Below are positions 5,674 through 28,750 of a DNA stretch of 64,000 bases, piece after piece. A program made the position numbers and the translations under genes. The notes beneath the pieces were generated by a model that ran no database searches, was not told the DNA's origin, and saw nothing but the letters and a program-made list of their open reading frames with translations. Positions within the stretch are counted from its first letter, which is position 1; each line of letters starts with the position of its first letter. The stretch comes from Camillea tinctor (taxonomy: Eukaryota > Ascomycota > Sordariomycetes > Xylariales > Xylariaceae), in NCBI GenBank assembly GCA_022578605.1, contig MU394092.1:124001-188000 (forward strand), given 5' to 3'.

Positions 5674-6900
5674 ATGTCTCGTCTCATTGACGCTCTCCCA
5701 ACACCCAAGGAGGTACGGGAGAAAAAGGTTATCGTCCTTAGTCGAAGTCGGTACGTGTTTATGAAGGTCTTAGTTACGCCTACGTTTAGGCTATGGGTAG
5801 GATGCTCTACTTAATTTCTTCGCTAACTTGAACTTTCTGATGTCACAGAGTGGGAACATTTTCGCTATACCAAGCGTTCAGGATTCTTGGGTATAAGCCG
5901 TATCACATGTACGAGTCTGTTATGAATGGGCGCCAACACATGGGAATCTTCGAGGAAGCGCTGCGGTGCAAGTACCAAGGGGTAGGGAAGCCATACGGGA
6001 AGCCTGAGTTTGACAAATGGCTTGCTGAGTATGATGTCTGTGGTCCCTGGTGATACACTCTCTACGAGATGCCGTATGCTGACGAAGCAACTACGGACAG
6101 TGCGTTATCGAGATTCCTCAATTTTTCATACAAGAGTTCATCGAGTTCTACCCGGATGCAAAGTTTATTCTCACCGAACGAAGCGTAGAATCATGGGTGA
6201 AGTCTCTGGAGAATACTGTTGGACCAATGCTCCAGATGACAAGGAGTTTTCCTAGTGAGTAATTTTTGGAGTTGTTTATTCACCCTTTTGGCCCGTCTCG
6301 AACTGACATGGGAGTCGAAATTCCCTATCATTGTTAAGCGTATGAGTTCATGAGAGTTTTAAGCCTTGGAACAACGGTCTCAAGAGTAAAAACATTACTT
6401 AATATGGAAATTACTGACTCCTATTATCATCACAGTGACTGCTGTACGATGGGTGGATGACTTTACTGATGCGTTTTGTACTCTACACTACGCTCTTGAC
6501 GACGTCATATTCCATGGTAAAGGAATGAAAGGGGGCATGGAAGATGCAGTCAAGGATTATCTCGAGGGGTAAGTATCTGGCCTAGGTTAGGTCAGCCAAT
6601 GTCTACGAGGTGAGAAACTAACGTGTTTAAAGAAACGAAAAAGCAAAGGAAGCTGTGCCAGGCGACCAGCTCCTTGTTGCCAAACTTGAAGATGGGTTTG
6701 GTTGGGAGAAGATATGTCCGTTCTTAGGGGTCGAGATCCCGACAGTGCGGTATCCCAAGGGAAATGCCCCAGCAGAGTTCAAGAAGCTCGGGGATGATCT
6801 CTTTGGCCCGAGGTTTGCTAAGATTGGTGCTATAGCTGTTACTTCAATATTATTACCCATAGCTAGCGTAGTGGCTTGGTATTATATGAAGAGGAGGTGA
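5674..6900 (+). CDS. Fungal sulfotransferase-fold (Sulfotransferase_4 type) membrane-anchored protein
   Basis: Member of the fungal P-loop sulfotransferase-like family, often mislabelled NAD-dependent epimerase; the substrate is unknown. Exons: 5674-5750, 5849-6035, 6101-6254, 6436-6568 and 6633-6900, giving 272 residues with consistent phases. Visible features: start MSRLIDALPTPKEVREKK, the loop SRSRVGTFSLYQAFRILGY near residue 25, the conserved core EFIEFYPDAKFILTERSVE, and a C-terminal hydrophobic helix (GAIAVTSILLPIASVVAWYY) ending in KRR, so it is probably tail-anchored. The usual R-T-G-T of the phosphate-binding loop reads R-V-G-T. Intron 2 (6036-6100) uses a GTCTGT donor with a good CTGAC branch. 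Intron 3 is a repeated element (see 6255-6435). Confidence 0.85.
6255..6435 (+). repeat. Introner-like repeated intron, copy A (sulfotransferase-fold gene intron 3)
   Basis: This 181-bp intron matches the RTC5 intron at 8415-8629 along its length although the host genes are unrelated. Shared blocks in order: GTGAGT plus the next ~18 bases ending GTTTA; CCCTTTTGGCCCGTCTCG; GGAGTCGAAATT; TAAGCGTATGAGT; GAGTTTTA; CAAGAGTAAAAA; and TTAATATGGAAATTACTGAC with the branch site. It sits in phase 1. AGTGA occurs at both ends (6254-6258 and 6434-6438), as a target-site duplication would leave, though splice-site sequence contributes to that match. Confidence 0.75.
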
Positions 6901-7792
6901 GATATTTTAGGTGTGGTTGGTAGGTTAGGCTGGTACTAGATAGTAATAGTAGATAGTCTACGAGTTGCCATCCCGATCTATCCAAGGACGGCATGTTGAA
7001 GCTGGTCTAAGAGAATTATTCTTGTCTTCTACTCCCCCTCATCCTCCCTATGTGTGTTGATGCAGGTATGATGTGACTCTAGTCTGCTCTCCCACAAGGG
7101 TTACGTAAATAATAGGTACTGGTCTAGCAAGATGAGGTAAGTAGAATATATACCTAGGTATATGGATGTTGTAAGTATGTTGGAAACCCAGGTCTCTACA
7201 TACATACCATACTAAGTAGCGTGTGCAACCATAGCTAACTATTTACAATGTGGGGGGTACTGGCTGACACTCCACTAATACCCCTACCTTACTTAATTCC
7301 AAAATAGCAGCTACCTCAGTTGCATACACAATATGTTGCTTCTATCGAATGGGCATGTATACTAATAAACTTAGGTTATGTACGTTAAGCATGCCTAAAG
7401 TTAATAATCGAAGGAAACAATCATGGTACCTACTAGTTAGGTAGGTAGGTAGTAGGTGGGGGCTAGCACATACACTAGTGGGACGAATGGATGTTCGGGA
7501 CTGCTTTAGCCTACGTCACAGGGCTTAGGTACCTACATACCTCGGTAGTACCTAGGTACTGATTACGCAGACAATTAAGGTTCCGTCTAACGATTCTCGT
7601 CAGTATCTGGGTACCTAGTAAGGGATCAGCTTCTAACCTACATGCATCTCAGGTTACTCCTTTGTCTCTCCCTTCTCTTCTTCCCATCGTCGTTATTACT
7701 TACCACTATTATCACCACTGCCACCAATTGCGACGTGAAATTAGTGTCCCCCCCCCACCTTCTTGGTATGGCTTCATGTTTAGTTGAGAAAC
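6901..7792. other. Intergenic region upstream of RTC5
   Basis: Separates two genes on the same strand. Dense in TAGG/CCTA words, including ACCTAGGT at 7152-7159 and 7550-7557 and a (TAGG)n-like run near 7437-7456. A pyrimidine-rich stretch near 7650-7770 may be the RTC5 leader. No gene seen. Confidence 0.5.
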
Positions 7793-9916
7793 ATGGGACA
7801 GACCCTCTCAGATGAAGCCCAACCTGCCTCCAAGGAGGAGATCATAGCAGACCTGGTTTGTCGCCTTCTAAGCACCCGCAAATTCCTGGCCCCATATAGT
7901 ACTGACACAAAGACATCGAGACTACCAGGCCGAAAAGTTCGCTCGAAAATGCTTCGAGCCGCTCGAATTGTATTCCTTCAAGGACAATTTCAAGTCGCTA
8001 GCCGACCATGAGCAGGGGGTCCGTTATCTTAAAGAGGATACAATTGCCCGTTTCCTCGAGCTTCCCGATATACTCGCCGTGTCTCCTGTCTTGTTTCATA
8101 TGCTCTCTTACATCGGTGCATTCCCTTTTCTCAAAGATGCTCCGGTAATACTCGGCTTCGAGCAGATGATTATGGTTGTCGCAATCATGACGGAACGTCA
8201 TTCAAAGATACTAGCCAAGGGTGCTAGCAACCGGAGGAAGCTGCTTTTCAAGAGCCTAGCTGTGTACGACCGTAAGCTATCTGAGATTGAGAAGCAGCTA
8301 CGTCGAGAAGATAATACTGGGCCTGGTATTGCCCACGCTGGTTCTTCACTCCGTGCTCACGGCTTTGCTGTCGACGAAGCTGGTGATGACTACGACGATG
8401 AAGCTGCAGAAGATGTGAGTGACTTTGGGATTCGTTTACCCCCCCCCCCCCCCTTCCCCCCCTTTTAGCCCGTCTCGTCCCGTCTCGTCCCGTCTCGGCC
8501 CGGCCTAGGAGTCAAAATTGTCTCCTATAACTAAGCGAATGAGTCCGTAGGAGTTTTGACTCTCGAGACATAGTCTGAAGAGTAAAAAAAGTTACCCAAT
8601 ATGGCAATTACTGACTCTCAGTGTTGTAGGATGAGCTGGTGTTGGCTGCACTAGAATCTCTTAATCTGGATGATGTCTTTAAGACGGGTGATTCATATGC
8701 TGCAACGACGCATGGTGCGATGATACCAGCGGATAACTTTCGCCGCCTCATTATGCTTCTCCTTCTTGTAGCACCCTTGGATGCGCAGGAGAGCTTGTCT
8801 AATTACGCCTCGAGAGTCACAGGCTCGGAACTCGAAAGCCTGAGAGCTACGGCCGAGAACATTCTTTCTGCTTTTATAAACGTTGAGCGGTCGCCCGGCA
8901 TTACCTTTTCCCAGTTTATCAATGTGATTCCAGTTAACTTTCCTTATCTCTTCAATGGGTTTAACCCGCTTTTCGAACACTTTCTCTTTTCAAAGAATCT
9001 CAATCTCTCTAAACGAAAGGATAGTGCGTCGAAGCCAGCAGCCCCAGTCGTTACTTCGCCCCCACTTCTGCAGGACCAAGGTCAGATATTAAATATTAAT
9101 GTTTTATCGCAGTTGTCCTGCTTTATCGAGGGCAACGAGCTATTTAGGCGACTTCGCCTGCTGTATTCAGGTGCAGAAGCTGGGTTTTCAATGAGAAGCT
9201 TTGAAGCGAAGGTGTTCAATTGGCGCGCACCTACTATTATACTTGTATCTGGAACTAGACTTTCGGATCCTCCGAGCAAGAGCGGGTCAGAAGGTGCATT
9301 CAACGATACGCTGCCTCCAAAAAGGTTCTCTAATGGCGGTGCGTCAGGTGGGGATCGTCTTGTATTTGGGGCTCTGGTAAGACAGCCATGGCGACATACA
9401 TATAAGGAGTGTTTTGGTGGGGATACTATTTTGTTTCAACTCTCTCCCACCCACGACGTTTTTCCCAGCTCGTCGGTGAACCGCGACCATGTAGCGTTTG
9501 CAAAAGCCCCGGTTGCTTACCCGGGGCTCAGCTTCGGTTGTCCGCATCCTAAGTCAAGTCATACATCGCGCCACGAGCCACTTCGACATCCAGGGCCGGT
9601 ATCACTTGTCATCGATTCAAGTTTCGAGTTTGGTGTATTCACTCATGACTATACCTCACGTGGAGGCGCTTACGCTACGAGTGTTTCACGTAGATACGAC
9701 TTCCAGGAGCGATTTTCTATCGATGAAATGGAGGTTTGGGGTTGTGGTGGAGACGAGGAGGCTAGGATACAGAGGGAGAGGTGGGAATGGGAAGCACGAG
9801 AAGCCGAAGCGAGGAGGAAGATAAATTTAGGAACAGGCGACATTGCAACAGATCGGGCTTTGCTAGAAATGGCGGGCATTATAGGCCATAATCGGAGTGG
9901 AGGTTCTATGAACTGA
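7793..9916 (+). CDS. RTC5: Restriction of telomere capping protein 5 (TLD-domain protein)
   Basis: TLD-domain protein of the fungal Rtc5 family; yeast Rtc5 acts at the vacuole with the V-ATPase. Exons 7793-7855, 7929-8414 and 8630-9916 give 611 residues with all junctions in phase 0, close to the usual family length. The start MGQTLS fits an N-myristoylation signal (Gly2, Ser6). The N-terminal half has the family block EKFARKCFEPLEL, FKDNF, and FLELPDILAVSPVLFHMLSY. The TLD domain runs from about residue 330 to the end (LFRRLRLLYSGAEAGFSMRSFE near residue 350, then FSIDEMEVWGCG and a charged tail). The first intron was placed at an acceptor giving ADLAEKFARK, matching the family. Intron 2 belongs to a repeated intron family. 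Transcribed toward RCF1. Confidence 0.9.
8415..8629 (+). repeat. Introner-like repeated intron, copy B (RTC5 intron 2)
   Basis: This 215-bp, phase-0 intron is homologous to the intron at 6255-6435. Relative to copy A it has expanded C-tracts (about 8439-8453 and 8456-8462) and roughly three tandem copies of CCCGTCTCGT at about 8469-8497 where copy A has one. A perfect inverted repeat, GAGTCAAAA at 8509-8517 and TTTTGACTC at 8554-8562, could form a hairpin. The block AATATGGCAATTACTGAC carries the branch site. GATG occurs across the donor (8412-8415) and just after the acceptor (8630-8633), a weak direct repeat. Confidence 0.75.
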
Positions 9917-11274: not shown

Positions 11275-12306
11275 CGCGGGACGTGGGCTTTACGGGATTT
11301 AACTATGACCTGCGAGAATCCCTTTTCTCTCTCTTTTTAGCATGGAGTAATTAGGGTATTGCCCAAGATTGGGTTTCGTTAAAGAGAAAGGGGGTTCTTC
11401 ACAATGCGGATGCTATAGAGGAGGTATAGTGAGAGTTCAAGGTGTATTCATGATGACATGGATTGATGGATTCTTTGATAAAGCTTGAAGCTTCAGTACG
11501 TTTTAGTGGGGAACTCAACGGCACGGGTAAGGGGGAAACTTATCGGCACGTAGGTAAGTACCGTTTAACCTAAAGACCTGTATAGCGGCAATCTAAAGAC
11601 CTGTATAGCGGCAATCTAAAGACCTGTATAGCGGCAATCTAAAGACCTGTATAGCGGCAATCTAAAGACTGGGTTAAAGTTGCCGGCTTTGATCCCCAAA
11701 CCGACGAGCGACCGGATACACTAGCAAAAGTAAGTGTTGGGTACCTCAAGTGCTACCCAGAGTACTATCATACATCAACACTATGTACCTAACCTAAATT
11801 AGGTGCTACGTAGCTTTTTATACAAAAAAATTTTTAACCCAGAGCTGTCGATAAAGAACTTATTACTAGATAATATATAGGTACTATGTAGGTAGTATAT
11901 GAACCTAGGTACTAAGTAAGGACCTAGTACCTAGGTAGGTACATAGTTGTATTGTATGCACATAATCAGCAACTCGGCTAGTCTAGACCCCGCGATAAAA
12001 GATTCAAGAAAAAAAAAAAATCCAAACATTAAGCACCTGCCCCACCATAACTTGCATTGTGTACCCTGTAACATCCAAAGAGTCATGAAATATTTTATGA
12101 GGTAGATAGATAGATAATCTACTACTAAGTACTACTATATACCCTACATCGCATTCGTCAGTCAGTCATTCGTTGTAATACCTACTACTTAGGTTCCTAG
12201 ATACCACCCTGTGCCATCGCCTTTTCTTCCCTCCCATCTCTTTTTCTTTCCCTCCCTTCCTCTTTGTCTCTTGTTATAATCTTCCTTCTCCTTACCCGCA
12301 AGAGCA
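11275..12306. promoter_or_regulatory. Divergent RCF1/ILV1 promoter region
   Basis: About 1 kb between two divergent starts. It contains the 23-bp tandem repeat at 11571-11669, AT-rich segments near 11810-11880, two ACCTAGGT palindromes (11903-11910, 11929-11936) and a pyrimidine-rich leader just before ILV1 (about 12218-12300). A near-match to a Gcn4/Cpc1 site (AGAGTCAT near 12080) was not counted. Confidence 0.5.
11571..11669. repeat. 23-bp tandem repeat, four full copies plus a partial
   Basis: The unit TAAAGACCTGTATAGCGGCA followed by ATC is repeated four times with no visible difference (starts at 11571, 11594, 11617 and 11640), then a partial TAAAGAC at 11663-11669. It lies in the RCF1/ILV1 divergent promoter. 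Identity of the copies points to recent expansion, and copy number may vary between strains. Confidence 0.95.
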
Positions 12307-27263: not shown

Positions 27264-28750
27264 CGTCCGCTTCGCGTGGGAGTTAGGTGTCGTATGATCG
27301 GGATTTATCGGTTGATATTATTTAATGGTTCGGGGGAGGGGGTAGAAAGAGGTAAGGCAAAAAAAAAAAAGAAAAAAAAAAAGACAAAAGTAGTAGTAAA
27401 TACTTCGAATTGGAAAAGGAAGAGAAAAAAAACCAGGGTCCAAGAAAAAGGACAAAACAATAGGTACCTATGCTAACCTAGTGGTTTAGAAGTTTTAACG
27501 TTTAGCGTTAGGTGCTAGGTGCTACCGTCGGAACGGATTGGAAATGTTCAAGTTGCAGCACGGCCCCTGGAAAAAGAATGGATGGAAGTTAGGCTGAACC
27601 TTCAGATGTCCCTCGGACCTGGGCTATAGGTAAACTCAACACCTATAATTGGACGGGACGAACACTAGTAAAAGTGCTGGAATATGATGCGGGGAGGGTA
27701 GCGGACTGCTGATAACCAAGGATCATGGTGATACAAGTGCGGGGAATAGCGGTTTGCGAGTAGCGGTGCGTTGTCACCGCAGCAGGTGGGATGAGATTGT
27801 CTTGCACAAACGAACCTGACTGGACGAGAGAGGGGAAACAATACGGTGATCACTCGGCATGGATGGAATTATGTACAGATACATCTGAATGCTATGCTAT
27901 GCAAGGCAAGAGAGAAAAAAAAAACCCCTAGCACCGGCATAACATAAGTAGGTAGGTGCATGGCATGACATATGGAACGAACAGAATATGCCCATTAAGA
28001 CTAAGAGGAAAAAAAGAAAGACAAGAGAAAAAAAGGGGGGGATGGAAAGAGGGGAAAGGGAAATAAATGATTTATTATTTGACCGACGTACATCGAATAC
28101 CATCATCATCACCTTATGTTTTCTCCTTATTTATTTTTATCCCATCTCTTGCTATATACATGTGGATAAGAGTGAGAAAGAAAAGGAATAAAAGAAAGGA
28201 AAAAAAAAAAAAAAAAGAAAAGTGAGAATTACATTTTTATTTCTTTTTCTTATTTCCTTGTTGGTACTCCTATAATTATTATTTTATTACAGTGACAAGT
28301 GTGGAGGAGAGATAAGTGAAGGGAGATCAAGAAAAAAAAGGAGACGAGAGTTAATTGAATTATCAACCAGGGGATATTTCGAGACCCGCAACCACAACCG
28401 AGAAGTATAGTTCTAGGTACGTACAGAGGATGGGTACTTCGATTTACTACGAAAATCAGCTGTCAGCCCATTAGACCGGCGATTTTTATTTTATTTTATT
28501 TTTACTTTAATATTTTTTTTCTGTTACACCACACTAATACCACTAACTCAATAACACTAACGTCTGCATGTACTACCGACGGTAGTAGAGATACATATTG
28601 CAACTGAGACGACGCTACCTCCTAACGCTACCTCCTAACGCTACCTTCTAACGCTACCTACTACCTACCTAACACATCCTCTCTTTTTTTTTTAAACTCG
28701 CTGCAATTCTTTTAGGGGGGGAGAGGGAGCACATATGCACGCACAGCATT
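27264..28750. promoter_or_regulatory. Divergent intergenic region with A-rich tracts and a 13-bp repeat
   Basis: About 1.5 kb with several A-runs (27360-27382, 28200-28216), T/A-rich patches near 28470-28520, and the 13-bp repeat at 28612-28660 close to the downstream start. No gene seen. Confidence 0.4.
28612..28660. repeat. 13-bp tandem repeat ACGCTACCTCCTA, about 3.8 copies
   Basis: Units start at 28612, 28625, 28638 and 28651; the third has one change (TTCTA) and the fourth is partial. It lies about 90-140 bp before the ATG at 28751, probably within the transcript leader or core promoter. Confidence 0.85.

Follow-up and report, generated by a model that had tools for sequence, protein, structure and literature searches.

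Two neighboring genes in a 64,000-nucleotide stretch of the genome of the ascomycete Camillea tinctor (Sordariomycetes, Xylariales; assembly GCA_022578605.1, contig MU394092.1, positions 124,001 to 188,000 of the forward strand; the window in what follows) carry introns that resemble each other along their whole length. How can related introns come to sit in a sulfotransferase gene and in the gene for RTC5? We consider it likely that the two introns, here copies A and B, belong to an introner family of C. tinctor, made of GT..AG introns of about 177 nucleotides (nt) that bring both splice sites with them, spread by way of RNA, and integrate preferentially at the exon word YA^TG (the caret marks the insertion point). 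Intron birth is an old open question. Introners of ascomycetes are described without target duplication, and those of the same order as C. tinctor without exon bias (PMC9860276, PMC8469720, PMC12403724; these and the other papers given by PMC number are cited from the parts of their text that were available), which leaves the integration step without a handle. The YA^TG preference hints at a sequence-reading step in intron birth.

The two introns of the window

The features concerned are as follows.

5674..6900, plus strand: host gene A, Sulfotransfer_4 domain protein (272 amino acids in the splicing of this analysis)
6253..6254, plus strand: upstream exon half (TA) of the YA^TG target of copy A
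6255..6435, plus strand: introner copy A, intron 3 of the Sulfotransfer_4 gene (181 nt, phase 1, splitting an ATG codon, exon context TA^TG)
6255..6260, plus strand: donor GTGAGT of copy A
6411..6418, plus strand: branch-site block TTACTGAC of copy A
6436..6437, plus strand: downstream exon half (TG) of the YA^TG target of copy A
7793..9916, plus strand: host gene B, RTC5 / TLDc-domain protein (deposited as P0121, 611 amino acids)
8415..8629, plus strand: introner copy B, intron 2 of RTC5 (215 nt, phase 0, junction AT^GA)
8608..8615, plus strand: branch-site block TTACTGAC of copy B

Both copies have GTGAGT donors and CAG/TAG acceptors. Copy B is longer than most family copies, with a poly-C tract and a CCCGTCTCGT tandem repeat. 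The local alignment of A with B scores 85, against a mean of 16.6 (standard deviation 2.3, maximum 31) for 1000 dinucleotide shuffles of B. The two are thus related over their full length, with the boundaries and the shared blocks that a previous examination of the letters alone (the sequence-only reading) had given them; its phases (1 for A, 0 for B) and its view that the hosts are unrelated (Sulfotransfer_4 vs. TLDc/RTC5) are likewise confirmed.

The assignment of B to RTC5 agrees with the deposited C. tinctor protein P0121, which is identical to the B splice over 590 of 590 aligned residues. The placing of A as intron 3 of the sulfotransferase gene fits the exon model, and the exons upstream of A match the deposited sulfotransferase, P0049. 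That protein ends the intron at an internal AAG within copy A, reads into the element, and is truncated at 179 amino acids; the 17 aligned sulfotransferase homologs, unlike P0049, run on through the C-terminal part. Judging from these alignments, we take the P0049 gene model to be wrong at copy A. The end of intron A is based on frame, homology, and fit to the family rather than on a deposited model. With the deposited model of host gene A broken in this way, gene models and annotation-based intron screens could miss such copies.

The family in the genome

The sequence-only reading took A and B for members of an introner-like family, an idea to be given up if no further copies turned up. They did turn up, at 109 distinct places on 57 of the 154 contigs of the C. 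tinctor genome. This number merges BLASTN searches with both introns, with a consensus and with a variant consensus, four mismatch patterns, and the nhmmer copies in the fetched loci; it is a lower bound that includes pattern-only matches, each DNA search having scored its best 40 candidates. BLASTN of the genome gave at least 40 matches with A and at least 42 with B (the weakest of the B set at E = 1.28), and 38 of the 40 listed matches of A start at the donor. Four ungapped patterns, with up to three mismatches allowed, gave 34, 30, 20, and 71 places, and their reversed controls 0 each. Two weak opposite-strand matches (E = 1.28 and E = 0.013) were excluded in merging; six of the 40 matches of the variant search were additions, the rest being already listed. 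Capture–recapture gives a rough estimate of 102 places.

The fetched sequence, 168.5 kb in all, has 67 copies by nhmmer, and a profile-coverage rule classes 62 of these as full length (median length 177 nt). That rule omits five copies with partial profile coverage, C10, C113, C2:1058814, C51, and C64:207412; C10 and C2:1058814 appear full length but diverged, and C64:207412 is a mini copy (see below). From the 42 places unused in motif discovery, 22 were fetched as a held-out set, of which 19 are full length (L107, L108, and L112, partial or doubtful, were omitted). The held-out copies have a lower mean score and a weaker motif than the first set. Full-length copies read thus number 81 (62 and 19 held out), and 20 of the 109 places were left unread. 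An exact 24-mer of the 3′ end of the family had no match in GTDB genome contigs or in viral contigs, neither of which is a fungal collection.

Could these be ordinary unrelated introns, alike in their splice and branch motifs alone? The donor and branch blocks are indeed among the best-conserved columns of the alignment. The similarity, however, covers the whole element, and a 30-base pattern confined to its middle part matches 20 places and no control. As the sequence-only reading held, the likeness goes beyond the splice and branch motifs, and chance resemblance between ordinary introns can practically be dismissed.

Some copies are clustered by twos or threes in what appears, by eye, to be one gene (L002, L006, L016, L009, L019, L021, L080, and L088), and an acetyltransferase-like and an alpha/beta-hydrolase-like gene have three copies each. 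Such clustering seems, again by eye, to exceed random insertion.

The sequence-only reading saw its main alternative in local copying or gene conversion between neighboring loci. A and B are 2 kb apart, and several places have two or three copies near each other. However, A and B share only 69% identity, and when the other 61 copies are ranked by closeness to each of them, the partner comes 47th and 49th; not being mutual nearest relatives, they exclude local copying as their source. The 11 close same-contig pairs examined (within about 1.2 kb, the pairs of triplets counted separately) all rank from 39th to 61st and so look like separate insertions, which makes local copying an extremely improbable origin. 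The closest pair in the family is 88% identical. The tree of the 62 copies is star-like: good support is limited to seven of its 59 inner branches, and the tips have a median length of 0.12 changes per site; it looks like a burst past its peak.

Copies as introns of protein-coding genes

The full-length copies read look like introns of unrelated genes, as the sequence-only reading supposed for A and B. Among the 62 copies, the donor is GTGAGT in 54, GTAAGT in six, and GTAAGC in one; the acceptor is CAG or TAG in 61. In-element stops occur in all three frames in 60 of the 62. The exact GT..AG join, compared with shifts of one or two bases, gives the longest open frame in 68 of 81 copies (51 of the first 62, 17 of the 19 held out). 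The sense frame is longer than the antisense frame in 54 of the 62 copies and equal in one. For RTC5 (P0121) and for a methyltransferase (P0247, without its N terminus), the proteins deposited for C. tinctor reflect splicing exactly at the predicted ends. None of the full-length copies read is clearly intergenic, although a few of them could not be placed and the frame tests did not extend to partial copies. C34:32103, C45:67611, and C2:1702183, exceptions in the frame comparison, are among the few without an assignable host protein.

Insertion sites

Proteins related to the hosts were compared at the codon split by the intron. There is no gap at that codon in any of 17 sulfotransferase homologs of host A (chosen from 145, with P0049 set aside) or in any of 13 RTC5 homologs, which do vary in length, but at a distance of about four or more residues upstream. 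The GH13 alpha-glucosidase, GST, SDR, and methyltransferase hosts are also gapless there against two PDB homologs each, although for GST the alignments start merely three to four residues before the split, a weak test. From these six host proteins insertion looks seamless. Nor is there a target duplication: flanking direct repeats average 0.98 nt, vs. 0.97 nt with shuffled partners.

In the methyltransferase, the residue at the split codon is Met in 110 of the 119 homologs with the motif (120 listed), Leu in eight, and Val in one; without the record of C. tinctor itself, Met is found in 109 of 118, B. mediterranea included. It aligns to Met in both GH13 structures displayed and in one of the two SDR structures displayed. 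The sulfotransferase of C. tinctor has Met at the codon split by copy A, as do Biscogniauxia sp. FL1348 and four others of the 17 homologs; B. marginata has Leu. Since homologs share the Met, the split ATG, or at least its Met, predates the intron in several hosts. An ATG borne by the element (the intron bringing A and TG as extra exon letters) is rejected in the hosts checked because the homologs are gapless there, several with the same Met.

The nucleotides around the insertion point are clearly biased. When ±20 exon bases were scanned, positions −2, −1, +1, and +2 alone exceeded the 99.9% null (0.20, 0.37, 1.40, and 0.73 bits). Exact YATG occurs in 26 of the 62 copies, vs. 0.41 expected from the host-frame rate. 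The held-out copies have YATG in four of 19 (p = 7e-6) and T at +1 in 15 of 19. Over all 81 copies, position −2 is C in 35 and T in 21, position −1 is A in 44, position +1 is T in 70, and position +2 is G in 58; YATG is present at 30 junctions, vs. 0.7% of host positions. Controls were 32 ordinary introns of the same genome sequence, picked by a simple frame-based finder rather than from annotation. T at +1 occurs in 70 of 81 copies vs. 11 of 32 controls, TG in 57 vs. 4, A at −1 in 44 vs. 7, and YATG in 30 vs. 1. A stricter earlier control set of 19 introns has TG in four and A|TG in two. The choice of insertion site is nonrandom and clearly favors YA^TG.

Two ways of producing this word by the insertion itself were discarded. 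A target duplication, with a YAGTG repeat at both ends, would tie exon position −2 to intron position −3, and the former does not follow the latter (17 matched and 14 not among 31 YA copies). Crypton-like recombination at TATG (PMC3212892) was dropped on the same evidence.

The word could also be the trace of selection after random insertion, YA^TG marking the insertions kept for a splicing or codon advantage of the exon context. Phase 1, with an in-frame ATG, is over-represented in the YATG copies beyond the host expectation, as such selection would have it. Yet the ordinary introns of the genome show YATG only once in 32, and copies nearest the family profile show no less of a bias than the most diverged (10 of 20, 10 of 21, and 6 of 21). 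Nor are A at −1 and T at +1 known to strengthen U2 splice sites. We regard selective retention as quite unlikely.

Symmetry of the ends

The family consensus closely resembles its reverse complement, with a predicted folding energy of −58.6 kcal/mol. In the predicted fold, GUAAU (positions 5–9) pairs with AUUAC just before the terminal AG, so that the donor and acceptor ends meet. The folding z-score is below −2 in 29 of the 62 copies and is lower the closer a copy is to the family profile (rho −0.61). RNAalifold on the alignment yields a seven-pair donor/branch stem alone, without double changes. On these comparisons, the symmetry is best explained as inherited from the master copy and eroded once a copy has inserted.

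The mini copy, L080 (G000:C64:207412-207466, minus strand), is a 55-nt intron made of the two family ends alone, and it still has a fold of −22.9 kcal/mol. Its host is the GH13 alpha-glucosidase gene, where it interrupts CA^TG; at a distance of 340 bases, the gene has a full copy at TA^TG. A gapped exact pattern found no second mini copy in the genome.

Origin and spread

Duplication-free insertion of inverted ends at a short word is also what some DNA transposons do, and these form the main rival: a non-autonomous element with terminal inverted repeats (TIRs), inserted without duplication at a palindromic CA^TG, whose ends happen to equal a donor and an acceptor so that genic sense copies are tolerated. 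The inverted foldback ends, the roughly palindromic site (C/T-A | T-G), and the lack of target duplication all agree with it, and duplication-free kinds exist, such as Spy at AAATTT (PMC4482050). Such an element would, however, be expected to leave neutral intergenic copies, and most of the copies read are coding and in sense (by frame length, 54 of 62). No autonomous partner turned up, although no search was aimed at its transposase; a search for Helitron domains gave no match, but its controls were without matches as well. On balance we think this origin unlikely, less so than selective retention.

The copies, for the most part in sense and coding, lack duplications and have intact ends; this agrees with an RNA route, and the family is probably spread by its excised intron RNA. 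Each copy being a complete intron, the host protein would survive its sense insertion into an exon. In the excised RNA, the near-terminal stem would form a hairpin that holds the donor and acceptor ends together. The intron would then enter a transcribed gene at a break, a nick, or an open strand, either joined there or copied in, in a step that reads or favors YA^TG. RNA routes of this kind have been proposed for the stwintrons of Xylariales (PMC12403724).

Several observations weigh against this RNA-borne, site-preferring introner family. With respect to splicing, one copy has ATGAGT in the place of the donor, a shifted join is equal or better in 13 of 81 copies, and the antisense frame is longer in seven of 62. 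Several of these frame exceptions resemble, by eye and in sense, what we take to be known proteins, for instance a pirin-like protein, an ammonium transporter, and an acetyltransferase. Splicing is read from frames, homology, and the proteins P0121 and P0247, with P0049 in disagreement. With respect to the target, 51 of the 81 copies are not at exact YATG, copy B among them (AT^GA), and the split Met is not universal: it is found in five of the 17 homologs at copy A, and Biscogniauxia sp. FL1348 has the Val of the methyltransferase. The YATG copies are in phase 1, splitting an in-frame ATG, in 21 of 26 cases vs. 13 predicted from the host sequence (p = 0.005), an excess that a purely DNA-level choice of site leaves unexplained. 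With respect to structure, covariation does not exceed that of shuffled columns (the number of cells paired was matched or exceeded by 274 of 500 shuffles, the covariation score by 136 of 500), and the symmetry may therefore merely reflect a palindromic master copy. Finally, the U5 small nuclear RNA gene, L113 (G000:C11:683780-683910), has an ordinary loop (GCCTTTTAC), with loop 1 reading GCCUUUUAC; an altered U5 loop as the guide to YA^TG is thereby ruled out.

With U5 ordinary and YA^TG unlike the proto-splice word AG^GY, a further sequence-preferring step is inferred for the RNA-borne family. A bolder proposal, to which we give somewhat less than an even chance, is that C. tinctor has either an ascomycete introner family with truly sequence-specific duplication-free integration or a new group of duplication-free transposons with complete donor and acceptor ends. 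In the sequence-specific variant, a nick or break at YA^TG of an expressed gene would be filled by the excised intron, and a nuclease, a topoisomerase-like activity, or an RNA-guided activity would pick the sites of new introns. The four-base target, the roughly 100 copies, the ends-only derivative, and the inverted ends lead to concrete predictions, for example that empty sites carry YATG. The target preference and the terminal inverted symmetry go beyond what the sequence-only reading saw.

Host genes and other features of the window

Among the host proteins searched, the closest protein relatives are in Biscogniauxia species. In P0165, P0190, and P0201, from other Xylariales, TLDc and Sulfotransfer_4 are within one annotated protein, which suggests that the sulfotransferase and RTC5 genes adjoin there too and were fused by annotation. 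Elsewhere in the window, short tandem arrays occur at 11567-11681 (23-base unit) and 28612-28663 (13-base unit). No Rfam family reaches its gathering score in the window.

Comparison with known intron families and transposons

In the broad sense of Gozashti et al. 2022, as summarized in PMC12403724, an introner has at least five introns per species that are similar over their full length; C. tinctor has 81 full-length copies and 109 places.

The nearest known systems are the sister stwintrons and cropped introns of Hypoxylaceae and Xylariaceae, which are seamless, symmetric, and without exon bias (Fekete et al. 2021, PMC8469720; 2025, PMC12403724). They belong to the same order and, as here, are similar introns in unrelated genes, inserted seamlessly, without duplication, and on the coding strand (PMC8469720, PMC12403724). 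The near-terminal inverted repeats start there too from donor nucleotide 5, the symmetry fades in diverged copies, and an internal-deletion derivative is known, comparable with the one ends-only mini copy here. The differences are equally clear. The [D1,2] stwintrons of Xylariales are nested in the donor and begin with GGT, whereas here a single GT..AG is present and the exact join keeps the frame in most cases. Immediately before the donor, G stands in 17 of the 81 copies and A in 44, so that the GGT start is not the rule. The stwintron palindrome WTTCTAGAAA and the 5′-NTIRE-10 word GUAUAAAAAC do not characterize the present family: exact TTCTAGAAA and GTATAAAAAC, the words for the palindrome and for NTIRE-10, are each absent from all 62 copies, diverged forms not having been sought. 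The accounts of the sister stwintrons report no nucleotide bias in the bordering exons, in contrast to the strong YA^TG preference here (PMC8469720, PMC12403724), and their RNA-route model gives no target word, unlike what is needed here.

The introner-like elements of Dothideomycetes are multiplying ascomycete introns (Collemare et al. 2015, PMC4457414), with stable predicted folds and preferred AG/GY sites as quoted in PMC8469720. Compared by description, they multiply and fold stably as the C. tinctor copies do, in another fungal class. The site is YA/TG here and AG/GY there (PMC8469720).

Algal and other introners derived from DNA transposons (PMC9860276) are likewise families of similar introns across genes, in part with inverted ends. 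The Huff/Gozashti type has a target-site duplication (TSD) and borrows a splice site from the host; here there is neither, and both splice sites are in the element. The ascomycete families of Gozashti et al. 2022 (PMC9860276) are given there as outliers without TIRs or TSDs, whereas the ends of the present family are inverted repeats. These repeats are seen in the comparison of the consensus with its reverse complement and in the fold, but no covariation supports a function for them.

Helitrons have 5′-TC ... CTRR-3′ ends and insert between A and T. The ends here are GTGAGT ... YAG in most copies, and the exon A^T is partial (A in 44 and T in 70 of 81). Dothideomycete introner-like elements, to return to the fungi, are reportedly the subject of work by van der Burgt et al. 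in 2012. Spy, of the PHIS superfamily (PMC4482050), shares with the present family the lack of target duplication and a short palindromic target; its target is AAATTT as against YATG here, and no search for a PHIS transposase was made.

In the introner literature on ascomycetes, Xylariales, or Camillea, we found, by titles and openings of the papers listed, no account of this C. tinctor family, subscription papers and preprints being outside that survey. By its anatomy it is an introner family, and its target preference is new relative to the published accounts of its nearest relatives, as far as the available parts of these go.

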